From contig JAUZRX010000064.1 in NCBI GenBank assembly GCA_030949985.1, forward strand, positions 1 to 64,000: 64,000 nucleotides of DNA. Direction: 5' to 3'. The notes beneath the pieces are model-generated. The model worked only from the letters and a program-made list of their open reading frames with translations. It did not search any database and had not been told where the DNA came from. A program made the position numbers and the translations under genes. Shown here piece by piece: positions 22,204 to 51,425 of this stretch (position 1 is its first letter; each line of letters begins with the position of its first letter). Source of the stretch: Acidobacteriota bacterium (GTDB lineage Bacteria; Acidobacteriota; Polarisedimenticolia; J045).

Positions 22204-22593
22204 CTACAACTCGTCATAACTCAGCCCCTCCACCGTCTCTCCCGAGGCCCGGCTCCTGACATCCCAGATTCCCGGCGGCTGGGTCGGATCGAGGCTGGTC
22301 TCGCTGTCGGCCGGGATTTCTTCCCAATCCTCGGAGTTGGTGATCGGATCGAGAGGGATACGCCTGAGGTAGTTCTCGTCCACCAGGACCTGCAAATCAC
22401 CGGGGTAGTACCCCTTGTCGGCGAAGTACTGGTCGATCGTCTGCCGAAGGATGAACAGATTCTCCTTGAGTACCGCCTCACGCGCCTTGCGCTGGGCGAT
22501 CTGGTAACGCGGGAGGGCGACACCCACCAGCAGGGCGATGATCGCGATGACGACCATCAGCTCGATCAGCGTGAATCCCCGTTCCTTGCGCAT
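22204..22593 (-). CDS. Type II/IV major pseudopilin, GspG-like
   Basis: A 129-residue prepilin. The N-terminus MRKERGFTLIELMVVIAIIA carries the class III signal (cleavage after Gly6; Phe+1, Glu+5), followed by the helical spine LRYQIAQRKAREAVLKENL-type region and the GspG tail (IDQYFADKGYYPGDLQ, LRRIPLDPITNS, W-D motif near the end). GspG-type subunits build the pseudopilus of secretion systems and bind calcium in the C-terminal loop. The ATG at 22593 leaves the normal 6-residue leader. It follows another pseudopilin on the same strand. Confidence 0.9.
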   Translation of the reverse strand: MRKERGFTLIELMVVIAIIALLVGVALPRYQIAQRKAREAVLKENLFILRQTIDQYFADKGYYPGDLQVLVDENYLRRIPLDPITNSEDWEEIPADSETSLDPTQPPGIWDVRSRASGETVEGLSYDEL

Positions 22594-22619
22594 GTTCACC
22601 TCCATGCCGATCCCGCGGC

Positions 22620-23102
22620 CTACCACGTCTTGTACTCGGTGCCGTCGAGCCCTTTACCTTCGGCAAGAGAGAAGACGTCGAAGACGTTGACCCCGTCCCA
22701 GGAATCGTCATCCGCGTCCTGCTTGTTCGAACGCTTGCCCCATTCGGCCTCGCCGGTCATCGGATCCCGCGGAATGCGGCGCAGAAACTTCACCTTGACC
22801 TCCTTGGCCAACCCCAGGTCGAGCCCCTCGACGAGGATCTCCAGTTCTTCCGGCCAGCCTTCCGCGGTGGCGTTTTCCTGCGCGCTGGGAACCGCCTTGA
22901 CGGTGAAGTGGTAGGCGTCGATCGCCCGTCGCATTTCCCGCAGGTGTTGCCGCAGCTCCAGTTCCCGGGCCCGCCGCTCCATGGTGTGGGCCACCGGCAG
23001 AGCGATGCCGGCCATGATCGCCAGCAGAAAGGTGCAGCACACCAGCTCCACCAGGGTGAATCCGCCCTCCCGCAAAACTTTCTGCCGAAGGGCGTCGCTC
23101 AT
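22620..23102 (-). CDS. Type II/IV pseudopilin, GspG/PilE-like
   Basis: A 160-residue prepilin with leader MSDALRQKVLREGG, then FTLVELVCCTFLLAIMAGIA (Phe+1, Glu+5). After the helical spine come the GspG-like elements ELEILVEGLDLG and FLRRIPRDPMTGEAEWGKR. Two cysteines lie unusually inside the transmembrane helix (VCCTF). Its ATG overlaps the stop of the secretin gene (ATGA), so it is translationally coupled to it. Confidence 0.88.
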   Translation of the reverse strand: MSDALRQKVLREGGFTLVELVCCTFLLAIMAGIALPVAHTMERRARELELRQHLREMRRAIDAYHFTVKAVPSAQENATAEGWPEELEILVEGLDLGLAKEVKVKFLRRIPRDPMTGEAEWGKRSNKQDADDDSWDGVNVFDVFSLAEGKGLDGTEYKTW

Positions 23103-25546: not shown

Positions 25547-25585
25547 ATTCACGGCCCTGGTTTCCCCTTGCATTGGAACTCGTTT

Positions 25586-26263
25586 TCAGCCGCGCCGCCC
25601 CTTGGACGCGGGGCCCTTGGGCAACACGAGCTTGACCGTCTTGGTCTTCTCGCGGAACTTTGGATCGGTATAGCCGATGGTCATCGAATCGATATCGATT
25701 TTCTTGACGACGAACTTGTTGTCGATGATTTCACCGACGCGCACGGTACGGATGTCGGCGCGCTTGATGTCCTTGGACGCTCCGGCACGGGTGAGAACCG
25801 CGAGAAATTCCATGGGTTCTGTGAAACGGCCGATGTAGGCCACGTACTGGTAGCGGAAATCCGGCGGCGGCGCGGCGCGGGGCGGGGCCGGCGGGCGGGG
25901 GTTGAGCGCAGCCTGCCGTTGACGCTGCTGGACCAGCTCTTTCTGCCGCTCTTGCTGCTTTTTGCGGGCGGCCTCCCGGGCGAGTTGTTGCAGCCTCCGC
26001 TCGCGCAGCACCTCCGGATTGGTCGAGTAGTCGAAGATGTTGCGTGACCCGGCGTAGTCGGCGGAAGTGGTCGGCCGGTCGACGAGTACCGGCGGCAAGT
26101 TGGCCAGGGCGTCGAGGCGCTCTCCGAGAGAGAGTTCTGCGGCACTCTTTTCAGCGCCGGCCTGGCGGGGAGCGAAAACTCCCGTCTTCCAGATGAAGAA
26201 AACCACGAGAAGCAGGAGGATCAGGAGAAGAACCTGCGGTCTGGAGGAGTTTGACTTCGCCAT
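25586..26263 (-). CDS. PilP/GspC-like inner-membrane protein
   Basis: A 225-residue bitopic protein with a TM at about 10-25 (VLLLILLLLVVFFIWKTG), a periplasmic linker rich in Arg/Gln that looks coiled-coil (LREAAR-type, KKQQERQKELVQQRQRQ), a Pro/Ala spacer and a C-terminal HR-like beta domain (YQYVAYIGRFTEPMEFLAVL, then VRVGEIIDNKFVVKKI). PilP and GspC link the inner-membrane assembly to secretin N0 domains. It sits between pilO-like and secretin genes, exactly where PilP is expected, although it lacks the PilP lipobox. Confidence 0.8.
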   Translation of the reverse strand: MAKSNSSRPQVLLLILLLLVVFFIWKTGVFAPRQAGAEKSAAELSLGERLDALANLPPVLVDRPTTSADYAGSRNIFDYSTNPEVLRERRLQQLAREAARKKQQERQKELVQQRQRQAALNPRPPAPPRAAPPPDFRYQYVAYIGRFTEPMEFLAVLTRAGASKDIKRADIRTVRVGEIIDNKFVVKKIDIDSMTIGYTDPKFREKTKTVKLVLPKGPASKGRRG

Positions 26264-26266
26264 GAT

Positions 26267-26956
26267 TCAGGGCCTCCTCCGGCGCCCGCTGCGGCGCCGC
26301 TGTTTGAGTTTCCACAGTCGTTCACGCTCGATCTCTTCCTTCATGTTCGGCGCGTTGAAGTAGGTCTCCACCGCGATATCGAGTTGCAGGTTACGCCCTC
26401 CCTCCCGAGCCTCCGAGCGCAAGCTGATCTCACGAACGATGAGAAATTGATCGAGTTGCTCGAGTCGCGCCAGGAAGCTGCGCAGGTTCTCGTAACCACC
26501 GTTGAGAGGAAAGGTGAAGGCGAAGACCTCGATCCCTTCCTGCTCGAGTTCCTGGCGCGTGATCGCCGCCCGGCGTGGCTGGACCTTGAACTCCCTCCCC
26601 ACCTCGTAGAGCGCTGTTTGAAAACGGACGAAGCGGCGCGAACGAACCGAGAGCATTTCATCGAAGAAGGTCCGCACATGCTGCTGCACCGCCAGGGCGT
26701 GATCGTGAACCCGCCGGATCTGCTCCAGGCGTTGGGCCGACGCCTGCTCGGTCTTGCGGGCCGTCGCCTTTTGCTCCTGCTTGATCTCGATCTGCTCCTG
26801 CAGGGGGCGGACGACGATCCACCAGAAGGCCAGATTGAGCACCAACAGTCCGGCGAGAACGACCATGATCCGGCCGCCATCACGCCGCAAGTCGAATCGC
26901 CCGGCCAGGCCCTTCCGGCCCCGCGGCGGTGACGGCGTGGTTGTCGAGGCGCTCAT
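26267..26956 (-). CDS. PilO-like alignment protein
   Basis: A 229-residue protein with a Pro/Arg-rich cytoplasmic N-terminus, one TM at about 30-50 (IMVVLAGLLVLNLAFWWIVV), a coiled coil of about 45 residues and a ferredoxin-like C-terminal domain (FAFTFPLNGGYENLRSFLAR, LDQFLIVREISLRSE). PilO dimerises with PilN in the inner-membrane alignment complex. A basic tail (KLKQRRRSGRRRRP) ends the protein. Its start overlaps the pilN-like stop by 4 bases. Confidence 0.85.
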   Translation of the reverse strand: MSASTTTPSPPRGRKGLAGRFDLRRDGGRIMVVLAGLLVLNLAFWWIVVRPLQEQIEIKQEQKATARKTEQASAQRLEQIRRVHDHALAVQQHVRTFFDEMLSVRSRRFVRFQTALYEVGREFKVQPRRAAITRQELEQEGIEVFAFTFPLNGGYENLRSFLARLEQLDQFLIVREISLRSEAREGGRNLQLDIAVETYFNAPNMKEEIERERLWKLKQRRRSGRRRRP

Positions 26957-28290
26957 GGCTGCCCTCCCCCGGAAGAGCCCGAGCCCGACCCTCCCGATCC
27001 CGAGGATCCTGAAGTCCCTCCCTCGGAGGAGGAACCGGAATCCGCGTTCCCGTTGTCGCCGCTGTCGCCCTTGGCCGGGTGTCCGTCAGGCAACCGGTCG
27101 CGGATTTCCTTGGGCAGCTTGGGCAGCGGCCCGCTCTTGATCTTCGGCGTGATCATCGGAACCCCGTTTTCGTAGACGACCTCGGCCTCGCGCTCGGCCT
27201 TGAGTTCCTCGGGGGTCAACCGGCGCCGTTTGGCGTCCTTGCCGTCGGGGCCTTGCGCCCCCTGGTTTTCAGAAGCTCGCTTCGGTTTCGATGCTCCCGC
27301 CTTGGGACGCTCTGCGAGAGCGGGCTCGACGATCCGCCGCGCTCCCCCGCTCCCGCCGGGAGGCAGCACCGCCGATCCGGCGAAATCGCCTTGCCCCCCG
27401 CTGCCGCTCGGGTCGGCGGCATTCCGCCGTTGGCGCCCTGCCTTCCGCTGACTCCGCGACCCCCTGGCCTTGCCCGCCCGTCCGGCGCGGGACTTCCCGG
27501 CTTTTTCCCGGCGCGGATCCGCGGAGCCGCTCTCCTCCGCCGCCAGGGCCGCCGGTTCGACCGTCTCCGGCACATCGACAGCCAGTACCTCTCGCCCGGA
27601 GCCCGCCCCGCCGTTTGCGGTCAGCCCCCGGTCCACAGCTGCGTCCCCGGCGCCCTCTTCCGGCACGACGATGGTCTCGACGCCCGCCTGCCGGCCGTCG
27701 TCTTCCCGGCTGGGAGCCGCCAACTCCACATCGGGGTCATAAGCGAATTCCAGCGAGAAGAAAATCCTGTTGTCGCTGCCTTTGCCCGTCTCGTAGCCCG
27801 TGGGCACCACCTGGTCGAAAAAAGGCGAATTCTGCAACGCCGTCTGAAAGTCGAGGAAGCTGTCGTAGTTCTGGGAGGTCGCTGTGAGGTCGATGATGAC
27901 CCGCCCCGCATCGAAACGCGGACGAATCGAAGACAGTTTCGTGTGCCACGGCAGCACCTGTTCGAGAGCGTTGAAAAAACGCGTCCAGGAGAAGTTCCGC
28001 TCGCGAAGCACGGCATTGGCGAATTCCGCCTGGGGGGCCAGCACATCCAGATCGATGGCCTCGAGTTCCTTCTGCAACCGATCCGCCTCCGACTGAATCT
28101 CCGCCATCCGCTGCTCGTGATCGGCCATCTCCCGATCGAGCGCCGCGAGCCGCGAGTCGGCTGTGATCCAGGTATAGGTGTTGTGGGCGGTCAACCCCAG
28201 CGCGGAGATCGCCAGCAGGGCGAGCAACACACCCAGCGGCAGATCGTTGCGAAAGGGCCTGGAGGCCAGGTTGAGCTCGATCGGTTTCAC
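26953..28290 (-). CDS. PilN-like alignment protein with long disordered tail
   Basis: A 445-residue protein, about twice the usual PilN length. The N-terminal IELNLASRPFRND is the PilM-binding motif, followed by a TM at about 19-37, a coiled coil and the ferredoxin-like domain (FFNALEQVLPWHTKLSSIRP, IIDLTATSQNYDSFLDFQTA). From about residue 190 the sequence becomes low-complexity: Glu/Ala/Gly, then Lys/Arg-rich, ending in a Ser/Gly run. Such a tail is not part of known PilN. It should extend in the periplasm. It overlaps both pilM-like and pilO-like genes. Confidence 0.83.
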   Translation of the reverse strand: MKPIELNLASRPFRNDLPLGVLLALLAISALGLTAHNTYTWITADSRLAALDREMADHEQRMAEIQSEADRLQKELEAIDLDVLAPQAEFANAVLRERNFSWTRFFNALEQVLPWHTKLSSIRPRFDAGRVIIDLTATSQNYDSFLDFQTALQNSPFFDQVVPTGYETGKGSDNRIFFSLEFAYDPDVELAAPSREDDGRQAGVETIVVPEEGAGDAAVDRGLTANGGAGSGREVLAVDVPETVEPAALAAEESGSADPRREKAGKSRAGRAGKARGSRSQRKAGRQRRNAADPSGSGGQGDFAGSAVLPPGGSGGARRIVEPALAERPKAGASKPKRASENQGAQGPDGKDAKRRRLTPEELKAEREAEVVYENGVPMITPKIKSGPLPKLPKEIRDRLPDGHPAKGDSGDNGNADSGSSSEGGTSGSSGSGGSGSGSSGGGQP

Positions 28291-29312
28291 GGCTCCCTCC
28301 TCAACGCCAGGCCCACGACGGGAAGCAGGTCGGGGACATCCTCGTCGGGAGCCGCCTGAAGTTCAGCGACGGCCCGCTGCATCGATGCCATCACGACCTC
28401 TCCGCAACCGGCATCCCGCGCCACCTGGAGAATTCCGGGAGCCTGAATCCCGACGACGCGCACCAGGGTACGGGCCAGCCCCTCTCCCAACAGGTGCTCC
28501 TCGTAGTAGCTCAGGCTGGAACGCAACTCGCGAGCCACCACCCTTAGACTCTCCTCGCCCTGGTAGGCTCCCTGGACATGATAACTGCGAGCGCGATAGA
28601 AAATCAGCTTGCCACGACGCAGGATGATCAGGCTGTAGTAGCTGGGTGTCGCGGAGAGCACAGCCGTATCGCCGCGTCGGCTATCGTCGAGTTGCCCGTC
28701 GACCCGCAACGCGTTGAAGGTCGAGAACGAGGAGAGGTCGATCAGCCCCACCCGCAAACCGATCGCACGGACCAGGTTCTCGATCACCGACAGGCCCTCG
28801 TCGGGGGCCAGTGCGACCAGGAGCTGGGCCCTGGAATCGTCCCCACGACCGAGTTGGACCCAGGAAAGACGCGCCTGTTCCAGCGGAAACGGAACCGACT
28901 TTTTCAGCCGCCAGCGAATCAGATTCTCGACCTCCCGGGGCGCCGAGGGCAGATCCTGGAAATCCACCACGAAGGCCCGCGCGACGGTATCCGGCAAGGC
29001 CACGGAGACCCGCGAGGCCCCTTCCGCACCGGCCCTGGTCAACGCCTCGCTGATGGCCTCTCCCAGCTCTTGGCTCGAGCCGACCTTGGAGCGCATCATC
29101 GAGGTCGAGAAGACCCCTTCCGGCAAAGAGCGGTGCCCATGTCCGAGCAGGTGATAAGTTCCATGTCGCCGCCCGAGGCGGGCAGCCACCACGGCGTCCT
29201 CCCTCAGCTCGAGGGCCACCAGCGGATAGCGCGGCCGGAACCATACCGACCGGCGAACCCGCTCGGGGACCAGGTGCTCGAGGTTGCCCAGCCCAAGTTG
29301 CATCGTTCCCAT
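28287..29312 (-). CDS. PilM-like actin-fold protein
   Basis: A 341-residue cytoplasmic protein of the PilM/FtsA actin-like group. Features: YPLVALELREDAVVAARLGR as the phosphate-1 region, VSVALPDTVARAFVVDFQDL, NLIRWRLKKSVPFPLEQARL, and a later GKLIFYRARSYHVQGAY before the final GLALRREP. PilM binds the PilN N-terminus and ATP. The glycine-rich phosphate-2 loop is weak, so nucleotide binding is uncertain. ATG at 29312 is chosen over a TTG at 29348; a second ATG lies at 29303. Its stop overlaps the pilN-like start (ATGA). Confidence 0.82.
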   Translation of the reverse strand: MGTMQLGLGNLEHLVPERVRRSVWFRPRYPLVALELREDAVVAARLGRRHGTYHLLGHGHRSLPEGVFSTSMMRSKVGSSQELGEAISEALTRAGAEGASRVSVALPDTVARAFVVDFQDLPSAPREVENLIRWRLKKSVPFPLEQARLSWVQLGRGDDSRAQLLVALAPDEGLSVIENLVRAIGLRVGLIDLSSFSTFNALRVDGQLDDSRRGDTAVLSATPSYYSLIILRRGKLIFYRARSYHVQGAYQGEESLRVVARELRSSLSYYEEHLLGEGLARTLVRVVGIQAPGILQVARDAGCGEVVMASMQRAVAELQAAPDEDVPDLLPVVGLALRREP

Positions 29313-29360
29313 CCTGTCAGCCCCTTCCAGCGGGGCTCGAAAACCCAAGGTGGCGACGGA

Positions 29361-30989
29361 TCATTCCACGAAGGTTACCTTGTTGATCTCCCGCAGCGTC
29401 GTTTTCCCGGCCATCGCCTTGAGCAGGGCGGACTGACGCAGCGGGCGCATCCCCTCGGCCTCCGCCTGGCGCCGGATCTGAGCCGCCGGACGACGATCGA
29501 GGATCAGCTCTCGGATCTGGTCCGAAAGGTCGAGAAGTTCGGAAATCGCCTCGCGGCCCCGATACCCCGTGCCGTGGCACTCGATACAGCCACGCCCCTC
29601 GTACCACGGCCGATCACGATACTGGGCCGGATCGAGGCCCGACTCCTCGAGGAGCTGGTCGGTGGGTTGCATCTGCACCCGGCAATTCGCACAAATCATA
29701 CGCACCAGGCGCTGAGCCAGCACGCAATTGAGGGCCGAGACGAAATTGTAGGGCTCGACGTTCATGTTGAGAAACCGGCCGAGCACGTCGATCACGTTGT
29801 TGGCGTGCACAGTGGTGAACACCAGGTGCCCGGTCAGCGCCGACTGGATGGCGATGTTGGCCGTCTCCTCGTCCCGGATCTCTCCGATCATCACCTTGTC
29901 CGGATCGTGTCGCAGAATCGAACGCAGTCCACGGGCGAAGGTCAGGCCCTTTTTCTCGTTGACCGGAATTTGGGTGATGCCTTGAAGCTGGTACTCCACC
30001 GGGTCTTCGATGGTGATGATCTTGTCCTCGGAATTGTAGATCTCCGAGAGAGCCGCGTAGAGCGTGGTCGTTTTTCCGGAACCGGTGGGCCCGGTCACGA
30101 GAAACATGCCGTAGGGCTCGCCGATGAACTTTCGGACCTTGGCCTTGACGTCGTCTTCGAAGCCGCAGACCTCGAGGCTGAGGGTCTTGAATTTCTCGCT
30201 GGCGGACTCCTTGTCGAGGATACGGATGACGCAATCCTCACCGTAGACCGCGGGAATGATGCTGACGCGGAAGTCGATCGTCTTCTCTTTGATCCGCAGC
30301 TTGAAGCGGCCGTCCTGGGGAATGCGCTTCTCCGAGATGTCGAGCTCCGACATCACCTTGATTCTCGAGATCACCGCCTGGTGGAAGCGTTTGTCGATCG
30401 GCTCCATCGCCTGGTAGAGCACGCCGTCGATGCGGTACTTGACGATCACTTCACGCTCACGAGTCTCGAAGTGGATGTCCGAGGCGCGCCGTTGCAGCGC
30501 GTTGAAGATCGTCGAATCCACGAGCTTGACGATCGGACTCTGGTCGGCGGTGATGCGGTCGATGGAAAGAACTTCCTCGCCGTCATCGGCCTCGCGCACG
30601 ACCTGGATCTTCAACTCTTCGGTGGCTTCGTCGAGGACCCGCTGAGACGACTCCGACCGCTTGAGAATCTCCTGGATCGCCGAACGGGTGCCGACCGACA
30701 CGTCCACCGGGTGCCCCAGCAGCAACTCCAGCTCGTCGATCATCAGCACGTCGGTCGGATCCGAAACGACGATCTGCAGACGCTCGTCCTGCATCCGGAA
30801 AGGGATGAAGTGATAGCGGAACATCAGCTCGACCGGCACCGACTCGAAAAGCTCGTGATCGATTTCGAAATCCTGCAGCTGGACGAAATCGAGCCCCAGG
30901 CGCTCGGCTCTCTGACGGGCTTCCACCTCCTCGTTGATCGTGTCGGTGGCGGCTGCGATGGGCTGCCCGGAATTGGTCGTATCGGTCAT
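29361..30989 (-). CDS. Pilus/secretion assembly ATPase (GspE/PilB)
   Basis: A 542-residue hexameric AAA-type ATPase that drives pilin polymerisation. The N-terminal N1E/MshEN-like domain (about 20-120, FEIDHELFESVPVELMFRYH) is followed by the motor with Walker A GPTGSGKTTTLYAALSE, the Asp box TIEDPVEYQL, Walker B RHDPDKVMIGEIRDEETA and the His box ALTGHLVFTTVHAN. A tetracysteine zinc motif is present (CANC and CIECHGTGYRGR). Only this assembly ATPase is seen; no PilT retraction ATPase lies in the window. Confidence 0.95.
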   Translation of the reverse strand: MTDTTNSGQPIAAATDTINEEVEARQRAERLGLDFVQLQDFEIDHELFESVPVELMFRYHFIPFRMQDERLQIVVSDPTDVLMIDELELLLGHPVDVSVGTRSAIQEILKRSESSQRVLDEATEELKIQVVREADDGEEVLSIDRITADQSPIVKLVDSTIFNALQRRASDIHFETREREVIVKYRIDGVLYQAMEPIDKRFHQAVISRIKVMSELDISEKRIPQDGRFKLRIKEKTIDFRVSIIPAVYGEDCVIRILDKESASEKFKTLSLEVCGFEDDVKAKVRKFIGEPYGMFLVTGPTGSGKTTTLYAALSEIYNSEDKIITIEDPVEYQLQGITQIPVNEKKGLTFARGLRSILRHDPDKVMIGEIRDEETANIAIQSALTGHLVFTTVHANNVIDVLGRFLNMNVEPYNFVSALNCVLAQRLVRMICANCRVQMQPTDQLLEESGLDPAQYRDRPWYEGRGCIECHGTGYRGREAISELLDLSDQIRELILDRRPAAQIRRQAEAEGMRPLRQSALLKAMAGKTTLREINKVTFVE

Positions 30990-31005
30990 CAGCTTCGTCC
31001 TCGTC

Positions 31006-32223
31006 TCAGAACTGCGAGCTGTTGGCGTAAGCGGAAAGCAGCGGGTAGTAGATCGCCAGCAGCATCACACCGACGACCACGGCCATCGCCACGAGCATCA
31101 ACGGCTCGACCAGCGACTCGGCCCGCTGAATCTGGACCGAAATTTCCTCGTCGTTGAATTCCGCCACGTGCTCGAGCATTTCGGCCAACGCTCCGGAAGA
31201 CTCGCCGACCTTCACCATCTCGACCATCATCTCGGGGAAGAGGCCGCTTTCCTCCATGCTGGCCCACAGGGCCGCGCCTTCACGCACCCGGCTGGTGATA
31301 CTCTCGATCGCCTCCCGGTAGATCGGCGTCTCCACGGCGCGGGCCACGATTTCGAGACACGTCACCAGCGGGATGCCGCCGGCGACCAGTGTACTCAGGG
31401 TGCGGGAGAAGCGCGCCATCACCAGCCGGCGGGCAATGCTCCCCGCCACGGGGGTGCGGTAGAGCAATCCCTCGAGCAGCCGGGCACCGGCGGGTGTTCG
31501 TTTCCACACCGTCACACCTGTCACGGAGAAGAAGAGGATCGTGATGATCGCCAACCAGTGCCCCCGCAACAAGTCCGAGGCGGCGATCACCATCCGGGTG
31601 ATCCAGGGCATTTCGGAGCCGATTTCCGCGAAGAAACCCTGGAAAGCCGGCAGAACATAGACCAGCAGAACGACGATGATCCCACAGAGCAGGGTCAACA
31701 AAATCGCCGGGTAGACCATCGCGCCGACCACTCGGCGGCGTACGCCCGAGACGGTCTGGGCGTAGTGGATGTAACGCCGGAGAACCGTGTCGATCTCGCC
31801 GCTCCGCTCACCGGAGGCCAGGGTGCTGGCATACAGGCCGGGAATCGCCTGCTGGGCGCCAAAGGCTTCCGAAAGGGACTCTCCCGTTCGTACCCGGTCC
31901 CGCACATCCTCGAGCACCTGGCGCAGCACGGGATTGCTCCGCCGCTCGATCAGCAGGCTCAGCGCCTCGGTGATCGGCAGGCCGGCACGGATGAGAGCCG
32001 CGAACTGCTGGTTGAAGATCAGAAAGTCCCCTACCTTGACCTTTTTCTTGCGCCGGAAAAGGTCACCCATGGCGGTGAGAACCGCCGACCGCCGCTGGAT
32101 CCCCAGAACCAGGAAGTCCTGGCGCTCGAGTTCCCGACGGAGGGTCTGGGGATCGCTGGCCGTGTAATCACGCTCGACGATCTCTCCCGAGGGGGTGCCG
32201 AGCCGACAGCGGTAGTCAGGCAT
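31006..32223 (-). CDS. Inner-membrane platform protein (GspF/PilC)
   Basis: A 405-residue polytopic protein with two T2SF repeats. The first repeat (about 65-190) has FNQQFAALIRAGLPITEALS and YASTLASGERSGEIDTVLRR; the second (about 270-395) has FSRTLSTLVAGGIPLVTCLE and EMVKVGESSGALAEMLEHVA. Three TM regions are visible (about 165-190, 215-240 and 372-395). It anchors and transmits motion from the assembly ATPase. AGGAGG lies 11 bases before the ATG. Length is normal for the family. Confidence 0.95.
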   Translation of the reverse strand: MPDYRCRLGTPSGEIVERDYTASDPQTLRRELERQDFLVLGIQRRSAVLTAMGDLFRRKKKVKVGDFLIFNQQFAALIRAGLPITEALSLLIERRSNPVLRQVLEDVRDRVRTGESLSEAFGAQQAIPGLYASTLASGERSGEIDTVLRRYIHYAQTVSGVRRRVVGAMVYPAILLTLLCGIIVVLLVYVLPAFQGFFAEIGSEMPWITRMVIAASDLLRGHWLAIITILFFSVTGVTVWKRTPAGARLLEGLLYRTPVAGSIARRLVMARFSRTLSTLVAGGIPLVTCLEIVARAVETPIYREAIESITSRVREGAALWASMEESGLFPEMMVEMVKVGESSGALAEMLEHVAEFNDEEISVQIQRAESLVEPLMLVAMAVVVGVMLLAIYYPLLSAYANSSQF

Positions 32224-32226
32224 CGC

Positions 32227-32991
32227 TCAGCGCTCCTCCTGCAGCAGGACTTCGGTGGCGGCCGGCGCCTTGTCATCGACCGACCAGGCGGTGAAGACCA
32301 GGAAGATAGCCCTTTGTCGTCCCCGTGAGGTGGCGCCCACCAGGTGTTGCCGGCCCTCTTCCAGATCCAGCTCTCCACTCCACAGCCTGCGCGGCCGGGG
32401 CTCGATGGAAGAGCCGCCGGCGGTGACGGGAGCCGGTAAACGATCGAGGCGGAAGGGTTCGACGAGGATGCGACGCCGTCCCTGGTCGACCCGCTTGATC
32501 TTCAACGAAACTCGGTAGCGCTCGGCGATCTCCGCCTGTCCCTCGCCCCCTTCCCGGAGCCGCAGGTTGGCGGTACCCAGAGAGCGGAAGCGGGTCCAGC
32601 GGGTCATCTCGGACAGGGTCCGGCTGATGTCACGCAGTTCGTCCGCCACTCCCGTGACCGGCGGCAGGTCACGAGTGGCGATCAGCAGGCTGACGCTGAC
32701 TTCCACCTCCCGGGGCGGTTCGTCCCACTCGGCGATCGCCCGGGCGATCTGTTCGAGGCGAGCCGGCTCGTCTTCGATGATGATCGCGTGCAGGGCGCGG
32801 GGCACCTTGTAGGCGCCACAATCGCCGATCATCTGGTCCGCGAGCTGGGCCGCGTCACCCACCTCGCGATAGTGGATCTCGATCACCCGCGTCGCGATCT
32901 CGACACCGGCGCAGGGATCGGTCTCGCCGACCGCCGGGGCGACCATGCCGAACGCGACCGCCAGGGCGGCGGCAAACAGGCGCACGCTCAC
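32227..32991 (-). CDS. Exported secretin-N-like domain protein
   Basis: A 254-residue exported protein with signal peptide VRLFAAALAVAFGMVAPAVG. Residues 25-105 resemble a secretin N-domain (NolW/N1): TRVIEIHYREVGDAAQLADQ, then ALHAIIIEDEPARLEQIARA and AIAEWDEPPREVEVSVSLLI. The second half is a beta-rich region resembling the outer part of secretins (RTLSEMTRWTRFRSLGTANL, then VGATSRGRQRAIFLVFTAW) but has no pore signature. GTG at 32991 overlaps the upstream anti-sigma-like stop (GTGA). It may pair with the secretin or act as a periplasmic sensor for the sigma/anti-sigma pair. Function is inferred. Confidence 0.6.
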   Translation of the reverse strand: MSVRLFAAALAVAFGMVAPAVGETDPCAGVEIATRVIEIHYREVGDAAQLADQMIGDCGAYKVPRALHAIIIEDEPARLEQIARAIAEWDEPPREVEVSVSLLIATRDLPPVTGVADELRDISRTLSEMTRWTRFRSLGTANLRLREGGEGQAEIAERYRVSLKIKRVDQGRRRILVEPFRLDRLPAPVTAGGSSIEPRPRRLWSGELDLEEGRQHLVGATSRGRQRAIFLVFTAWSVDDKAPAATEVLLQEER

Positions 32992-33446
32992 AGGTCCAGC
33001 TCCTCGTCGATGATCAGCGTCAGCGTGGGGCCCTGCGCGGTGGCTGGCACGATGGTGATCACCTGGGCGGTGGCCGAGTCGATTCGGCGCACCACCGGTT
33101 CGACACGCGCTGCAGCGAGTCGGGAAACCGGTTGTCCTGTCGGACCCGCCAGCCCCCACAGTGCGCCGGCGACCACGAGCGCGGCGGCGGCGGCCACCCC
33201 CCCCCGGCGCCAACTCCTGTCCGCGGCGGGCAACGGGCTGCGGTAGGCCGGCACGCCCTCCGCGGGCGGCAGACCGCCAAGGGGTGCGAAAACCGCCGTG
33301 GGATCGAGCGCCACCAGGCGGCGACGAACGGCGGAATCGGTCAGCAGCGCCAGGGCCTCGGCGGCATCCGGCCGGGCACCGGAGGCGATCTCGGCCAGGC
33401 GGCGATCGGTCGGCCCCGATCCATCGCTCCGGGAAGAACGGCTCAT
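32988..33446 (-). CDS. Single-TM protein, probable anti-sigma factor
   Basis: A 152-residue protein. The N-terminal cytoplasmic part (1-78) is helical and Ala/Arg-rich (RRLAEIASGARPDAAEALAL), then comes one TM at about 81-101 (GVAAAAALVVAGALWGLAG) and a short periplasmic tail ending ATAQGPTLTLIIDEELDL. The gene overlaps the ECF sigma gene by 4 bases, the usual position of a membrane anti-sigma factor. No zinc HxxxCxxC motif is seen, so it is not a classical ZAS protein. The assignment rests on position and topology, not on a recognised domain. Confidence 0.55.
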   Translation of the reverse strand: MSRSSRSDGSGPTDRRLAEIASGARPDAAEALALLTDSAVRRRLVALDPTAVFAPLGGLPPAEGVPAYRSPLPAADRSWRRGGVAAAAALVVAGALWGLAGPTGQPVSRLAAARVEPVVRRIDSATAQVITIVPATAQGPTLTLIIDEELDL

Positions 33447-43852: not shown

Positions 43853-44479
43853 ATGAGCCGCCAGCCGGTGCCGAGCACGACTCCCAGCCGACTGCCGCCA
43901 TCAGAGAGGGGATTCTCCCTCGTTGAAATGCTGGCCGTTCTCGCCATCGTCGGCCTGACGGCGGCGATCGGCGTTTACACCATCGACCTGGCCGGCTGGA
44001 GAGCCTCTTCGGCCGCCTCGGACGTGGCCCGCCGGATCGAGTTGGCCCGTTCCCGGGCCGTCTTCGAGCAGAACGACTATCGGGTGATCTTCGACACCGC
44101 CTCCAACTCCTACCGGGTTCACGACGACGAGAACTCCAACGGCAGCATCGACGCCGACATCTCGGAAAGCGTGACGACCTATCACCTGTCCACCCAGGGG
44201 GCGGGAACGGTCTTCGGCTATCCCGCGGGCACGAAAGGCATCGACGGCGCGGACATCACCGCGGCGATCTCCTTTTCCGGATCCGCTCCCGTACTGACCT
44301 TCGATCCCCTGGGGTCCGCCAATGCGGGGGTGATCTACCTGATCCCCACCGCCGATCTCGACCGCGCCGACCCCGCCAACATGCGGGCGATCAGCATCAA
44401 CCAGGCAACGGGCCGGGTCCGCCGCTGGCGCTACGACCCGACGATATCCAACCCCGGACCATGGAGGCTCGAACAATGA
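43853..44479 (+). CDS. Minor prepilin, FimT/GspH-like
   Basis: A 208-residue prepilin and first gene of the sigma-54 operon. A 19-residue leader ends in SERG, followed by FSLVEMLAVLAIVGLTAAIG (Phe+1, Glu+5) and a GspH-type body (VARRIELARSRAVFEQNDYR). A calcium-loop-like DDENSNGSIDAD occurs near residues 99-110. Minor pilins of this type prime pilus assembly. The ATG at 43853 follows a weak GGTGAGGTG site. Its stop overlaps the next start. Confidence 0.87.
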   Translation: MSRQPVPSTTPSRLPPSERGFSLVEMLAVLAIVGLTAAIGVYTIDLAGWRASSAASDVARRIELARSRAVFEQNDYRVIFDTASNSYRVHDDENSNGSIDADISESVTTYHLSTQGAGTVFGYPAGTKGIDGADITAAISFSGSAPVLTFDPLGSANAGVIYLIPTADLDRADPANMRAISINQATGRVRRWRYDPTISNPGPWRLEQ

Positions 44480-45186
44480 GCAGCCACAGGATGCCCCTTC
44501 CCCGCGACGAGTCCGGCCTTTCCCTGGCCGAAACCATCGTCGCCATCGGCGTGTTCGCCATCGCGCTGCTGGGACTGAATACGCTCCTGATCAGCACGAT
44601 CAGGACCTCCGAAATGGCCCGGGATCACGCGACGGCGCGGTTCCTCGCCGCGCACCGCCTCGAGCAGATCAAGAGCGCGCGCTACCAGGACGGAAACCGC
44701 GACGCATGGAACGACACTTCCGACCCCTGCACCGACATCGACGAAGTGACCTACACCAATTTTCCGGACGAAGACTACGGGGAGGTCGACCTGCTCAATG
44801 GCACGCAGTTCAACTTTCGTTCCTGTGCGGGCACTCCCGACATCAAGAACGGGGCCGTACTCTTCGGCCGCAGCGACTATCCCAGCGACGCGCAGGGTGA
44901 TCACGATTACTGGGTCAATCACGGACAGTACGATCGCTTCCGGCGTGAGGTCTACATCATCGACAGTGCGGACTACGAGGACGTCATCCGCAACGTGACG
45001 CTCCAGGGCCTGAATCCTGATGCGCGGGACAGCGTGAGCGTCGAGACGACCACACCCTCCGAGACCGAGCCGGCGACGAACTTCGTCAAGTACGTGCTTG
45101 TACGCGTGAAGTGGAAGGACAGCCATGGACAGCCTCACGAGGTCACTCTCACCACTGAAAAAGCGTTCTACATCCCGGCCTTCTAG
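44476..45186 (+). CDS. Minor prepilin, PilV/GspI-like
   Basis: A 236-residue prepilin. The leader ends in DESG, then LSLAETIVAIGVFAIALLGL (Glu+5), and a PilV-type spine (HATARFLAAHRLEQIKSARY). The body is unusually long and acidic (DTSDPCTDIDEVTYTNFPDE), with two cysteines that may pair. ATG at 44476 overlaps the previous stop (ATGA); an in-frame ATG at 44461 is an alternative. It is larger than common PilV proteins and probably sits at the pilus tip. Confidence 0.85.
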   Translation: MSSHRMPLPRDESGLSLAETIVAIGVFAIALLGLNTLLISTIRTSEMARDHATARFLAAHRLEQIKSARYQDGNRDAWNDTSDPCTDIDEVTYTNFPDEDYGEVDLLNGTQFNFRSCAGTPDIKNGAVLFGRSDYPSDAQGDHDYWVNHGQYDRFRREVYIIDSADYEDVIRNVTLQGLNPDARDSVSVETTTPSETEPATNFVKYVLVRVKWKDSHGQPHEVTLTTEKAFYIPAF

Positions 45187-45205
45187 TCGGGCCAAGGAGG
45201 CGACC

Positions 45206-48200
45206 GTGGAAACGCTGCAGGGACACAAGCGCCCCCCCGCCGAGAGCGGTTTCTCCCTCGCCGAGGTCACGGTTGCGCTCGGCATCACGACCATTCTCTT
45301 CCTTGCCGCCCTGTCGATGCTGACCATGGACCACAGGCTGTACAACCGGGACGACGCGGTCCTCGAGGCGGCACGGGAAGGACGCTACGCCATCGACAAG
45401 CTGGAACGCGACATGTTGATGCTCGGCTACCAGGTGGATGTGCGCACGGTGGCGGATCCGGGCCCTGACGGCACGGAAAACACCGACGACGACCTCGTCG
45501 GCCAGCCGTCCATCGTCTACGCAGCCCCCTACGAGCTGGTCTTCAACGCCGATATCGACCCCACCATCGACGCGATCCAGGACGGAAAGACCGGAGACAG
45601 CGTGCCCTCGGGCTACGCCCCCGTGACCTTCCACACGGGAGCCGAAACGATCCGCTACACCCTGGATTCCAACGGCGACGGTGATGTCGACGCCAGCGAC
45701 CAGGGTGACGACGCCGACGAGGCGGTGATCGACAACGACGGCCTCTTTCTGCTGCAACGCGAGACCTACGGCTACAACGGCACCGACAATCAGAACCCCG
45801 CGGGCCCCGTGGCCCTCGTCCGCGGTCCGGTGGCCTACCCCAACGGTGCGCGGGCGATCCCTCTCTTCCTCTACTGGGGTCACTTCGACTCCGACCCGGC
45901 CGAAGACCTGTGGGGCGACGACGGCAGTGGAGGCGGGACCGCCGGCAACGGTATCCTCGAGCCGGGAGAACTGGCCGCCCTCGGCCCCGTCACCGACGAA
46001 GATGCCGACAACGATGCGGTTCTCGACACCGGCGAGGACCGGAACGGCAACGGGACTCTCGACCGTCGCATCTCGGACATCATCACGCGGGTCGAGATCC
46101 ACGTCACCTGCGAGACTTCTTACCCGGACATGACCTACGAGGACCCCAGGCGTTCCTCGAGCACCGAGCCCTTTCGTTACCGCTCGGTGACAATGAACAC
46201 CGAGATCAAGCCGCGGAACACCGATCTTCCGGGAGGCGCCTGCGGCGACGAGCCGGAGAAGACCAGTTCGCCGAGCATCGTCAACGCCTGTTCCGACCCC
46301 CTGGCCGACGGCAAGGTCACCTTGAGCTGGAGCCTGTCGGCGGACGACGGCAATTTCGAGGATGATATCGAGAAGTACCTGATCTGGCGTACCGACGTGA
46401 ACTCCGTGTTCGGACCGACGGCCTTCGACGAGGTCCTCGACGGCACGTCTTCCTGGGAAGACGACTGGATCGAGATGCGCACCTGGCCTCCCCGCCAGTA
46501 CTGGTACCGAGTCCGCGCGATGGACTGCACTCCCCAGCTCAGCCGCCTCGACCCGGTCGTCGGTCCCTACCCTTCGGCCACCGGGCCGTCATATCCGACG
46601 TCCTTCTCGGTATCCGATATCGCCGGTGACGACGGCACGACCCTGAGGGTCGACTGGCATGCTTCTCCGGACGATCCCGCCAACACCACAGGCTACGGCC
46701 AAGACGTCGCCAATTACCATGTCTATCGCTCGACCCAACCCGACTACCGCTGTGTCCCGCCCGTCAACAAAACCGCCATCGCCGCCGACGGGTCGACCCT
46801 GTACAGCTACCTGGACGACGCCACCAACTCGGATTCGGCCCCGGACTACGGCAAACTGTACTACTACTGGCTCCGCGCCGAGGACGACAGCGGAGTGCTC
46901 TCTCCCTACAGCCCCCGCGCCTGTGCGCGGTCCTACAAGGGCCCGAGTCTGCCGCTCTTCCCGCAGATACGCGTTGCCGTCCATGGCAGCAACGACCATC
47001 CGGTCGAGGCATGGTGCCTGCCCAATCCCGACAACGAAGCTGCCGGCTACGACCCCTACCTGATCCAATACAAGCTCTATACCTCGAGCGACCTCAACTC
47101 CGACGGCACTCTCGACAGCCTGGTGGACATTCCCGTCGGTTATACCGAAACGAACAACCTCGATCAAACCAAGTATTTCGACGGTATCTACTGGATCCTC
47201 GGTGACGCCACGAACAACACTCTGCTTCACGGAATCACGGCCGGTAACGCGCCCCGCGACATGGGACAGCCCGGCAACAATCTGCTGGATGTCGACTTCA
47301 TCAATCGCCTCGACGGCCTGGCCGTTGGTGACGCCGGCGAGATTCTCCAAACCAGCGACGGTGGTATCAACTGGACCGATGTTTCCGGCAGCGTGACATC
47401 CTCCGACCTCAAGGCGGTCGACCAGATGGACGAGCAAGTCGCAGTCGCCGTGGGCCTGGGCGGAACCATCGTTCGCAGTGCCGACGGCGGTGCGAGCTGG
47501 GCACTGATTTCATCCCCGGTGTCCAACGACCTGCGCGGCGTCAGCGGCTGGGACGGCTTCTTCGTCGCCGTCGGCGACGCGGGAACCGTGCTGACATCCT
47601 CCGATGGAGGAGTGACTTTCACGGAGAACCTCACCTACCCCGGTACGGACACTGTTTTCGACGTCTGCGCGACATCCACGGCCGGCGGTGGCACCTTGAT
47701 ATATGCCGCTACCCAAGACGCCATCTACGTTTCGGCGGACGGGGGTGGAACCTGGTCCCTGAAAGACTTTACCGGTGAAGGGCGAATCACCTCTATCGCT
47801 TGCGTGGAGACCGGATCCGCGATTGCGGCTTCCAGCGACACGGGCGCCGTGCTCCTGACGACCGACGAAGGCACGACATGGAGCTACCAGGGCGCCTCCG
47901 CCACAGAACCTGTCGACGTGGAAATGGTCACCTCGCGGCTGGTCTGGGTCGCCGATCGAACAGGAGAACTGCACTACCGGGATCATACGGGAACCTGGCA
48001 GACCCTCAACCTTCCGCCGGGCGTCGTTCCCATCAACCTTGCCGCACGCGACGAAATCGTCTTCGAGTTGAACAACACCGCGGATTGGCCCAGCGGAACG
48101 CCCTATTTCGGGGTAATCACGGCCGCCTACAACCAGGGCTCCACCCTGGACGGCGAGGCCGGGATGATTCCCGATCAGCCTTCCAGCATCGAGTCGCCCG

Positions 48201-48268
48201 ACGACTCGGATCCCCAGATCCGGGTCGATTCCTGCAACAGCTTCGAGCTTTCGGTCATCCAGCCGTGA
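45206..48268 (+). CDS. Giant PilW-like prepilin with C-terminal beta-propeller-like repeats
   Basis: A 1020-residue protein, about three times a normal PilW. The N-terminus is a true prepilin: a leader ending in ESG at residue 15, then FSLAEVTVALGITTILFLAA (Phe+1, Glu+5) and a spine (EAAREGRYAIDKLERDMLML). Acidic calcium-type loops follow at 154-165 (DSNGDGDVDASD) and 278-286 (DRNGNGTLD). The middle has two FN3-like beta segments (about 370-590). From about 690 to 940 lie Ycf48/BNR-type repeats, each with TSDGG-, SADGG- or SSDGG-like turns followed by W. GTG at 45206 follows AAGGAGG. It is likely a pilus-tip adhesin built into a pilin. Confidence 0.8.
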   Translation: METLQGHKRPPAESGFSLAEVTVALGITTILFLAALSMLTMDHRLYNRDDAVLEAAREGRYAIDKLERDMLMLGYQVDVRTVADPGPDGTENTDDDLVGQPSIVYAAPYELVFNADIDPTIDAIQDGKTGDSVPSGYAPVTFHTGAETIRYTLDSNGDGDVDASDQGDDADEAVIDNDGLFLLQRETYGYNGTDNQNPAGPVALVRGPVAYPNGARAIPLFLYWGHFDSDPAEDLWGDDGSGGGTAGNGILEPGELAALGPVTDEDADNDAVLDTGEDRNGNGTLDRRISDIITRVEIHVTCETSYPDMTYEDPRRSSSTEPFRYRSVTMNTEIKPRNTDLPGGACGDEPEKTSSPSIVNACSDPLADGKVTLSWSLSADDGNFEDDIEKYLIWRTDVNSVFGPTAFDEVLDGTSSWEDDWIEMRTWPPRQYWYRVRAMDCTPQLSRLDPVVGPYPSATGPSYPTSFSVSDIAGDDGTTLRVDWHASPDDPANTTGYGQDVANYHVYRSTQPDYRCVPPVNKTAIAADGSTLYSYLDDATNSDSAPDYGKLYYYWLRAEDDSGVLSPYSPRACARSYKGPSLPLFPQIRVAVHGSNDHPVEAWCLPNPDNEAAGYDPYLIQYKLYTSSDLNSDGTLDSLVDIPVGYTETNNLDQTKYFDGIYWILGDATNNTLLHGITAGNAPRDMGQPGNNLLDVDFINRLDGLAVGDAGEILQTSDGGINWTDVSGSVTSSDLKAVDQMDEQVAVAVGLGGTIVRSADGGASWALISSPVSNDLRGVSGWDGFFVAVGDAGTVLTSSDGGVTFTENLTYPGTDTVFDVCATSTAGGGTLIYAATQDAIYVSADGGGTWSLKDFTGEGRITSIACVETGSAIAASSDTGAVLLTTDEGTTWSYQGASATEPVDVEMVTSRLVWVADRTGELHYRDHTGTWQTLNLPPGVVPINLAARDEIVFELNNTADWPSGTPYFGVITAAYNQGSTLDGEAGMIPDQPSSIESPDDSDPQIRVDSCNSFELSVIQP

Positions 48269-48282
48269 GGAAGGAGCAGACG

Positions 48283-50493
48283 ATGATCACCCATGTCAAC
48301 GAAAAGGGATCGGCGCTGGTCGTCGTGCTCTTCGTCATCTCGGGCCTGACGCTGATCGGCTTGGCGATGCTCGGCTCGGCGACCTTGTCGCTCAAGTCGG
48401 CTTCCGTCGGGGCCGACGACGCCGAACTCTTCTACATCGCCGAAGCCGGTCTCGAGCGGATGATCGGCGACGTGACATGTTCGCTGGTCGGCCAGCCGGA
48501 CCTGGACCATATCTTCGACAACTATGTCATGCTTCACATGACCCATGGACGCTCGCGGGGTGCTGACGGAGAGGCCGGAACCTCGGACGACTCGGGGCGC
48601 GATTACGTGAACGTGCAGCACGGCCGCGGCACCTTTACCATCGACATCCTCTGCTACCCCTCGACCATCGCCGAGGCGCGGAACCTGGAATTCGTCGATA
48701 TGAACATTCGTTCAACCGCCACCATCGGCGACCAGACGAAGACCGTATCCAGCGTGATCCGGCTCAAGCTGATTCCCTCGCGGGTCTTCGACAACGCCTA
48801 TTTCATGAACAACTTCGGTTGGATGAGCGGCTGGTCCTGCGGCTCGCTCTACATGCACGGCAACCTGCGCGCCAACGGCGACATCAAGCTCTACAACTCC
48901 TGCGTGCGCGGCCGTGGCACTCCCTACTACGAGAAGATCGTGGTCAACGACCTGATCGGTCGTATCCACGACGGTGGCCTGATCGCGGGCGGCAGAATTC
49001 TCGGAGCCGACGACGTCCAAGGCGACTACGCCGATTCGGCCAATCAGCATGAATACCAGGACGTGATCCCGATGCCGAACCTCTCCGACCTTTCGATCTA
49101 CGTCAAGGCCGCGCGGGAGTGGAACGGTGGAACACCCGGAGACGACGGCATCTGGGGTACGCCGGACGATACCGGCGGCTCGACGCTGCAGGTCTGGGAC
49201 CGGGCCCTCGGACGTTACCGCACCTATCGTGGCTGCATCGGGTGCAACCTGGGGCCGGATGGCCTGTGGGGTACAGCCGACGACTTCTACGGCCGGGACG
49301 GCCTGCCCAACACCGACGACGACGAGTCCCCCTTCATGGTACTCGACGGACGCACCCAGCCGATCATCATCGACGGGCCGGTGGTCATCGGCTCCCCCGG
49401 TGCCGACGGCATCTGGAACACCGACGACGAGTGGGATGCCACCGGTCTGCGGCCGATGACCGGCGCGGTGATCATCGTCGGCCGCGTTTCCGGTCAGGGC
49501 AGCATCTACACTCCGGGCAACATCTACCTGCCCGATCAGCTCGTCTACGACAATCCGACGCGGCCTCATCTGCCGGGTGACGGCACGCCTCCGGGCACCG
49601 GATACGGCAATAGCGTCAGCACCAACTACGCTTCGATGGCGGAAGAAGACATCGAGGGCTGGCGACAGCTCACCACAGCCACCAGCCCGGCGGGGACCTA
49701 CCAGGTTCGGGACGCCGACATGCTCGGCCTCTTCGCCCGGGAGAACATCATCATCGGCCGTTTCACCAATGGGGCTTACTGGGGGTCTGTGGATGGATGG
49801 CTGGCTGATCCGGACAACGAATCCAAAGAAGATCTCGGGCTGGACAATTTGCCCAATACCGGTGACACGAACGAGGGTAACGGCACATGGGATGTCCGGA
49901 CCTACGCTTCCAACGGGGCCAATCAGTGTGGATCGGGCCTGATCCCGGCGGGCTACAGCCCGGGCGACGTGATTCCCGGCTCCGGCGAGGACCTGGACGG
50001 GGACGGGCGCTACGACGCGACCATCGTCCGCGGTTCGCTCAACGCCCAGGGTATACCGTCTTCGGGATCGTCGAGCTTTGCCTTCCCCGAAGACATCAAC
50101 GACCGCCTCGACTCCAGCGCCAGCGACCCCAACACGGCCACGCCGATCGACACCGACGGCGACGGGCTGATCTGGCGGGGTAGCCCCTTCTGGACCGACA
50201 GCGCCACCAACCACAGCTGGGCCGAGATCGCGCCGTACCTGCCGCAGACCGACTCGGTGCACGCCGTGCTCTACACCAACCACGCCATCGCCGGCGTGCA
50301 GATTCGGGGGCCCTCGGGTTTCCACGAATACTTCGGCGCCTTCGTCGCCCGGGTCGAGGCCACCGTCGGCTCGGCGATCTCTGTCTTCAGCCACGACCCG
50401 CGCCTGCTGGGAGGCGCCAAGGACTTCGGGCTGTACCTGCCCCGCGAAAAGGCGATCGAGGTGCGGGCCTGGAAGGAGGAGATCGTCGAGTGA
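48283..50493 (+). CDS. Giant PilX-like minor pilin with acidic repeats
   Basis: A 736-residue protein. The N-terminus KGSALVVVLFVISGLTLIGL and the downstream FYIAEAGLERMIGDV match PilX/GspK-type pilins, which lack Glu+5. Normal PilX is below 200 residues. The long body has repeated acidic turns of the form G-x-D-G-x3-T-x-D-D at 93-103, 286-296, 324-334, 337-347 and 373-382, and Ca-loop-like segments such as DLDGDGRYDA and DTDGDGLIW. Between them are beta-rich segments with many GG turns. AAGGAG precedes the ATG at 48283. It probably forms part of the pilus tip with the giant PilW-like protein. Confidence 0.75.
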   Translation: MITHVNEKGSALVVVLFVISGLTLIGLAMLGSATLSLKSASVGADDAELFYIAEAGLERMIGDVTCSLVGQPDLDHIFDNYVMLHMTHGRSRGADGEAGTSDDSGRDYVNVQHGRGTFTIDILCYPSTIAEARNLEFVDMNIRSTATIGDQTKTVSSVIRLKLIPSRVFDNAYFMNNFGWMSGWSCGSLYMHGNLRANGDIKLYNSCVRGRGTPYYEKIVVNDLIGRIHDGGLIAGGRILGADDVQGDYADSANQHEYQDVIPMPNLSDLSIYVKAAREWNGGTPGDDGIWGTPDDTGGSTLQVWDRALGRYRTYRGCIGCNLGPDGLWGTADDFYGRDGLPNTDDDESPFMVLDGRTQPIIIDGPVVIGSPGADGIWNTDDEWDATGLRPMTGAVIIVGRVSGQGSIYTPGNIYLPDQLVYDNPTRPHLPGDGTPPGTGYGNSVSTNYASMAEEDIEGWRQLTTATSPAGTYQVRDADMLGLFARENIIIGRFTNGAYWGSVDGWLADPDNESKEDLGLDNLPNTGDTNEGNGTWDVRTYASNGANQCGSGLIPAGYSPGDVIPGSGEDLDGDGRYDATIVRGSLNAQGIPSSGSSSFAFPEDINDRLDSSASDPNTATPIDTDGDGLIWRGSPFWTDSATNHSWAEIAPYLPQTDSVHAVLYTNHAIAGVQIRGPSGFHEYFGAFVARVEATVGSAISVFSHDPRLLGGAKDFGLYLPREKAIEVRAWKEEIVE

Positions 50494-51425
50494 AACCGGT
50501 CTCCCTGCTCAGCCTCGGGGCCCCGCCCCTCGCCGCCATCGCCGCGGCCATGGCGGCACCATGGCTGACGGGTGCCGCCGCCACGACAGCCCTGGCCGCG
50601 GCGGCGGCCGTCTGCCTGGCTGCAGCGGCCCACGCGCTCGGGCGGCAGGATGGCTCCTCCCCCGCCCTGCGGGTGCTCGCCGGCGGCCTGGCCGCGCTGG
50701 CTTTCGCCGGTGCCGCAGGCATCCTTTTCGAAGCGCCCCTCCGCCTGCTGATCACCTTCGTCCTGCTCGGCGCCGCCGCCTGCAGCGTGGGGGCGACCCT
50801 CGTCAGCCGGGCCTGGCAACGACGGGAAGTCGAACTCGCCCGCCTGCGCTCTCAGCTCGTTCGCCGCGAGGGTGATGTGCGGGCCCAGGCCGACCGCATT
50901 CGACGGCTCGACCTGATCGACCCCGTCACGGGGCTCCTCAACCACCGGGGGCTGCTCAGGGCCATCGAGGTAGCCACCGCCGAAAGCGCGAGCCGCCATG
51001 AGCCGTTGGCCCTGATCGTGATGGAACTACCCGACGACCTGCCCCGCCCCGGCGAACCCACGGCGGGGGGCCAGCGCCTCCGCCTGGGACGGGCGCTGGG
51101 TAGCGCCGTCCGCGGGTCGGACGCCCTGGGCCGATGGAGTGATCGCCGCCTGGCGCTGGTGCTCTCCTGCTGCCATAACCCACGCCCCGCAACCGAGCGC
51201 CTGCAGCACGCGCTCGAGACCGTCGGTCTCTCCCGGCAGACGACCCCGCTCGCAGGGGTCACCATCGGGCCCAACGGCCCCTGGCCCGCGGCTCCCGATT
51301 TGCTGGCCGCCGCGGAGGCTGCCCTCGATGCCTCCCGCCAGGCGCCGGAAAACGCGGAGACCGCCCTCTGGCCGGTGGAACTGGGCCTCAGCGCCCGCGC
51401 CGAAAGCCCCGCCCCCGTCCATTGA
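50490..51425 (+). CDS. Membrane protein with degenerate GGDEF domain
   Basis: A 311-residue protein. The N-terminal 110 residues hold about four TM segments (Ala/Leu-rich). A short linker helix leads to a GGDEF-like domain that keeps DLIDPVTGLLNHRGLLRAIE at about 141-160, the typical start. The signature expected at about 217-221 is SDRRL instead of GGDEF, and the region before the end (LAAAEAALDASRQA) still resembles the family. It cannot make cyclic-di-GMP by the known mechanism. GTG at 50490 overlaps the upstream stop (GTGA), so it is the last gene of the sigma-54 pilin operon and may be a receptor or scaffold there. Confidence 0.65.
   Translation: MKPVSLLSLGAPPLAAIAAAMAAPWLTGAAATTALAAAAAVCLAAAAHALGRQDGSSPALRVLAGGLAALAFAGAAGILFEAPLRLLITFVLLGAAACSVGATLVSRAWQRREVELARLRSQLVRREGDVRAQADRIRRLDLIDPVTGLLNHRGLLRAIEVATAESASRHEPLALIVMELPDDLPRPGEPTAGGQRLRLGRALGSAVRGSDALGRWSDRRLALVLSCCHNPRPATERLQHALETVGLSRQTTPLAGVTIGPNGPWPAAPDLLAAAEAALDASRQAPENAETALWPVELGLSARAESPAPVH

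Follow-up and report, generated by a model that had tools for sequence, protein, structure and literature searches.

A giant PilW-type minor pilin with a predicted Ycf48-like propeller, a candidate modular tip pilin of an Acidobacteriota bacterium

The 64,000-nucleotide stretch of DNA analysed here (the window) encodes a giant PilW-type (J) minor pilin of 1020 aa (45206-48268, + strand), with the frame, domain matches, homologues and AlphaFold models pointing to a chain in which a class III prepilin N-terminus is joined to FN3 domains and a seven-bladed Ycf48/BNR propeller. The propeller fold is a confident prediction from modelling. The reading we favour, with moderate confidence, is that of a modular tip pilin whose distal module acts as an effector or adhesin in place of PilY1.

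The frame is intact and opens with a GTG at 45206, with the Shine-Dalgarno sequence AAGGAGG (45194-45200, +) lying five bases before it; an alternative in-frame ATG at 45125 falls inside pilV and is hence a less likely start. Residues 1-15 (45206-45250, +) form the prepilin leader, recognised in the sequence and by N_methyl, which reads METLQGHKRPPAESG up to the predicted cleavage after Gly15 and FSLAEVTVALGI beyond it, with Gly at -1, Phe at +1, Glu at +5 and then a hydrophobic helix (the cleavage context being PAESG/FSLAEVTVALGI). N_methyl scores 22.7 bits in the genome search, above cut-off, and 17.0 bits in the protein scan, under cut-off. The first-pass annotation had read a true class III signal in the ESG before Phe+1 with its Glu+5, and this is borne out (ESG/FSLAE). 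The same chain bears a domain that is not pilus-specific (PSII_BNR, propeller model), as is typical of a modular type IV pilin. Curated PilW/GspJ models give no match in Pfam/NCBIfam-type protein scans, and the model of the pilin module is not confident; assignment to the PilW/J core minor pilins stems from the position of the gene, third in FimT-PilV-PilW-PilX, from the presence of Glu+5, and from relatives with identical order. The protein is also unusually long for a PilW, as had been claimed, with those of PilY1-bearing relatives extending to ~360 aa counted from the cleavage site.

The propeller spans about residues 653-945 (47162-48040, +). PSII_BNR matches the C-terminal third of the giant PilW at E = 5e-11, above cut-off, with Ycf48 chains in the PDB matching the same third at 4e-4. 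Exact matches to the Asp box (S/T-x-D-x-G-x-x-W/F) lie at five places (residues 716, 758, 798, 843, and 885), 40-45 residues apart, compared with 0.11 boxes expected in shuffled sequence, and seven repeats are readable, the outermost two having degenerate boxes in the window copy, in agreement with the earlier claim of at least five Ycf48/BNR repeats and a propeller. Modelling and Foldseek searches of the C-terminal part, proposed with that claim, lead to the same fold: AlphaFold2, supplied with seven sequences only, places the propeller at about residues 660-950 with pLDDT 70-93, and a second AlphaFold run on residues 571-1020 returns it again (71-96 in ten-residue blocks), with the flanking halves of a proposed third FN3 domain mostly at 30-60. 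The top Foldseek match is Ycf48 (E 3-5e-12), and the designed seven-bladed propeller 7bid is matched with a TM(target) of 0.79-0.80. Cys821 and Cys866 occur together in seven homologues and are both missing in one, the pattern expected for a disulfide between adjacent blades. Ycf48, a photosystem II assembly factor, is the nearest likeness to this propeller in both sequence and fold, however it is a free protein without a pilin part that acts on photosystem II, which is irrelevant to the giant PilW. A Ycf48 function was rejected, with the full-length Ycf48 model NF010237 giving 47 bits against a cut-off of 326; the giant PilW is not a Ycf48 equivalog. PF05567, the model for the C-terminal propeller of PilY1, does not match the giant PilW.

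Ahead of the propeller lies the pilin module (residues 16-344; 45251-46237, +), with 66% mean pairwise identity in the family, followed by FN3 a (about residues 345-460; 46238-46585, +) and FN3 b (about residues 461-578; 46586-46939, +). AlphaFold2, run on the same seven sequences, gives pLDDT <50 for the pilin module and FN3 a, and models residues 460-578 as a beta-sandwich-like, FN3-like unit of six strands with pLDDT mostly 70-88. Residues 387-572 match the FN3 domains of other giant PilWs in a collinear HMM alignment (5e-13), so that the FN3-like segments of the first-pass annotation are recovered; Pfam fn3 matches 12 of 16 homologous giant PilWs, but not the window copy. A conserved C-terminal tail closes the chain (residues 993-1020; 48182-48265, +). 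The pilin module also carries an EF-hand/dockerin-like calcium loop, DSNGDGDVDASD (residues 154-165; 45665-45700, +), kept in all family members covering the region.

Sequence comparison indicates that the propeller is probably inserted within a third FN3 domain, the proposed halves of which are residues 582-652 (46949-47161, +), modelled with low confidence, and 946-992 (48041-48181, +). The regions containing these flanks are better kept (49% and 57% mean pairwise identity, respectively) than the propeller (37%). When joined, the halves can be aligned with the profile of the third FN3 domain from other giant PilWs at 28.9 bits, compared with 23.2 bits for swapped halves and 17.7 bits for a control join. 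A Pfam fn3 scan of the joined domain gives no match, the support being of the profile-profile kind only.

The giant pilW gene is part of an operon ordered FimT-PilV-PilW-PilX, with a GGDEF-like gene last. The FimT/GspH-type minor pilin (H subunit, 208 aa; 43853-44479, +) matches Pfam GspH (3e-7) and N_methyl, both over cut-off, and contains a loop, DENSNGSIDAD, similar to that of the giant PilW pilin module. The PilV/GspI-type minor pilin (I subunit, 241 aa; 44461-45186, +) matches NCBIfam PilV at 9e-8, below cut-off, and N_methyl weakly, with the motif SG/LSLAE. The PilX/K-type minor pilin (48283-50493, +) matches PilX_N at 2.5e-5, just below cut-off, and has a prepilin-like site, KG/SALVV, without Glu+5, as does the subunit capping the tip complex (PMC10191384); M. 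xanthus models order the tip complex FimT-PilW-PilV-PilX (PMC13190605). This PilX is enlarged (736 aa), with no Pfam match besides PilX_N, the PilX-like proteins in other families of the class being about 610 aa long. The GGDEF-like membrane protein (50490-51425, +; Pfam GGDEF 1.5e-7) overlaps pilX by 4 bases; with a degenerate signature motif (RWSDRR), it is unlikely to be an active cyclase, and its membership of the pilus system is uncertain. At locus L071, a different gene stands in its place. Domain searches place a pilus machinery cluster at 22207-33213 (-), comprising two prepilins, a secretin, PilO/PilN/PilM-like genes, a PilB-type ATPase, and a PilC-type platform protein, and three PilT-family genes score above cut-off in the source genome. 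The secretin (23102-25573, -) carries at its C-terminus a cohesin domain (Pfam; residues 695-799, E 4e-6), a conceivable partner for the dockerin-like loops of the minor pilins, and a PKD-domain protein of 345 aa (21097-22131, -) follows the two prepilins of the cluster.

The giant pilW gene is found in 10 of the 12 genomes of its family, either full length or ended by contig ends. A search for the same prepilin and propeller architecture elsewhere, as suggested at the outset, found a recognisable prepilin N-terminus in none of the 13 other large BNR proteins inspected in the phylum sample, and the propeller-pilin fusion is thus confined to one family in this sample. Giant PilWs of other families of the same class occupy the same operon position, share the pilin module and the collinear FN3 domains, and almost always occur without PilY1, however they carry C-terminal Ig-like domains where the window copy has the propeller, give no match to BNR, and have one extra FN3 near the pilin module. 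As read from these sequences, the enlarged PilW carrier is class-wide and the propeller is a family-level module. One relative (G003 contig 34, L039/L051) has a second FimT-PilV-PilW set, in which Ig-like domains replace the propeller in a giant PilW open frame of 1199 aa. Within the family, mean identity is 66% for the pilin module, 65% for FN3 a, 57% for FN3 b, 49% for the first half of the third FN3, 37% for the propeller, and 57% for the C-terminal tail. Between the two congeneric genomes, dN/dS is lowest in FN3 a (0.020), higher in the pilin module (0.057), and highest in the propeller (0.163). At the level of the coding sequence, the giant PilW is under purifying selection throughout, weakest in the distal parts. 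The divergence of the propeller may reflect relaxed constraint rather than a change of ligand, and no concentration of variability in the surface loops of the propeller is seen (36% identity in loops, 39% in strands). In-gene contig breaks in several relatives were rejected as a sign of hypervariability, being expected given such short contigs.

PilY1, which has its own C-terminal propeller, is regarded as the usual tip effector of type IVa pili in diderms and performs an adhesive task in other diderm bacteria. Its reported absence from the window holds genome-wide, with PF05567 finding no PilY1 in the source genome (100% complete), although the same model, as a positive control, finds PilY1 in 57 of 199 phylum genomes; a PilY1 in the source genome may have diverged beyond recognition. 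A more sensitive profile built from acidobacterial PilY1s detects the protein in the class only once among 41 genomes. Searched with a profile of its N-terminus, PilW turns out to be usually giant in this class, with open frames of about 700-1370 aa, some ending at contig ends; some of the short matches to the profile are probably not PilW. PilY1 is found in none of the 17 listed phylum genomes in which the PilW match lies in a frame of at least 700 aa, whereas in the 25 listed genomes where a PilW match accompanies PilY1 the longest frames are 365-523 aa (Fisher p = 0.01, kinship ignored; the genomes are related, so this is not a tally of independent events). In a further 63 tabulated genomes, PilY1 and a giant PilW are both lacking, and a missing PilY1 thus need not be compensated. 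Many PilY1-negative Acidobacteriota have PilW-like genes of normal size only, and one class member, G046, assembled as a single contig, has PilW-like frames of only 301-335 aa. In G212, the sole PilY1-bearing class member, PilY1 lies about 2.1 kb from a PilW frame of 415 aa, with a giant PilW (822-aa frame) on a separate contig and an estimated contamination of 6%. As other giant PilWs carry FN3 and Ig-like domains and no propeller, it is the large PilW ectodomain, not the propeller, that tracks the lack of PilY1. The earlier suggestion that the propeller pilin could replace PilY1 therefore stands in part: PilY1 is absent here and rare in the class, but the link is not propeller-specific and replacement is correlative.

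In the proposed mechanism, the gene would encode a J-type (PilW) core minor pilin of a type IV pilus that has grown into a modular tip effector. By analogy with known pilus biology, prepilin peptidase would cut after Gly15, and the PilW helix would then pack against FimT, PilV, and PilX, which lacks Glu5, in a priming and tip complex. The FN3 domains would form a stalk holding the seven-bladed, non-enzymatic propeller beyond the tip, where it may bind a putative ligand on a surface, polymer, or partner cell. The giant PilW would thereby take on the adhesive task of PilY1. A more tentative scenario, plausible rather than probable, is that the class lost PilY1 and its task moved into an enlarged PilW, with the distal module swapped family by family and, here, a whole propeller inserted into a stalk FN3.

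The chief rival to an adhesin is a protein-docking or assembly platform, in which the propeller would recruit another secreted effector or steady the tip with the enlarged PilX, adhesion lying elsewhere. That the nearest fold is an assembly factor and that PilX is likewise enlarged are in keeping with docking, as is CofB, cited in PMC8179133 as a tip minor pilin that is an adapter for a secreted adhesin. The rapid divergence of the propeller, however, does not point to a conserved partner, and the operons compared have no other gene in common; we regard docking as unlikely, albeit a serious competitor. It is less likely still that the operon encodes T2SS pseudopilins, with the giant J subunit handling secreted substrates. 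Whilst FimT, PilV, PilW, and PilX are homologous to GspH, GspI, GspJ, and GspK, and T2SS lack PilY1 (PMC10191384), the PilM/PilN/PilO-like genes in the window, the PilT family in the genome, and the match to PilX_N, not GspK, make a type IV pilus the more likely system, and PilY1-bearing relatives have the identical operon order. A pilus-displayed enzyme, such as a sialidase or glycoside hydrolase, is very improbable. Sialidases and GH74 enzymes contain BNR/Asp boxes, and the NCBIfam glycosylhydrolase model NF045728 matches weakly (52 bits against a cut-off of 175), however the propeller has seven blades rather than the six of a sialidase, and no conserved set equivalent to the sialidase Arg triad and Glu/Tyr, or other catalytic set, is found in it. 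The only conserved charged residues beyond the Asp-box-type aspartates are R701 and R757; conserved propeller residues in the family alignment are nearly all structural, and catalysis is therefore unlikely. Finally, the possibility that two genes were joined by an assembly error or, as raised in the first-pass annotation, a sequencing error is negligible, for although the relatives are metagenome-derived and several homologues end at contig ends, four other genomes have the same continuous full-length frame (52-84% identity), a fifth has the gene from residue 81 on, and others cover one or other half.

The favoured reading, a tip pilin with an adhesive module, has precedents in tip pilins onto which adhesive modules have been grafted (PMC8179133, PMC12206443), with modular pilins known to be diverse (PMC8179133). 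Streptococcus sanguinis PilB (vWA module) and PilC (lectin module) similarly combine a class III N-terminus with a large non-pilin module, and are minor pilins thought to lie at the tip (PMC8179133). In contrast to these, the giant PilW, a putative adhesin, belongs to a diderm FimT-PilV-PilW-PilX operon and carries an FN3 stalk and BNR propeller. Saccharibacteria PilX2 is likewise a pilin that ends in a seven-bladed propeller and has been proposed as a tip adhesin replacing PilY1, however it is an X subunit, its repeats are of the RCC1 type, and no PilD signal is predicted for it (PMC12206443), compared with the W subunit, BNR/Ycf48 repeats, FN3 domains, and canonical signal of the giant PilW. 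PilY1/PilC, a large tip protein from the minor-pilin operon with a propeller at its end, would do the same job as that proposed for the giant PilW, but is not a pilin. A search of openly licensed papers brought up no account of a PilW with a BNR/Ycf48 propeller, although the PMC8179133 dataset may list one, nor of the pattern of giant PilW without PilY1 in Acidobacteriota.

As the giant PilW and PilY1 seemingly replace each other in this class, they offer a natural comparison in which the same four-pilin tip has its effector as a separate cap in one case and as part of PilW in the other. This makes it testable whether a pilin stalk with a distal module suffices for adhesion and priming, with the fast-diverging module giving a handle for a ligand search.
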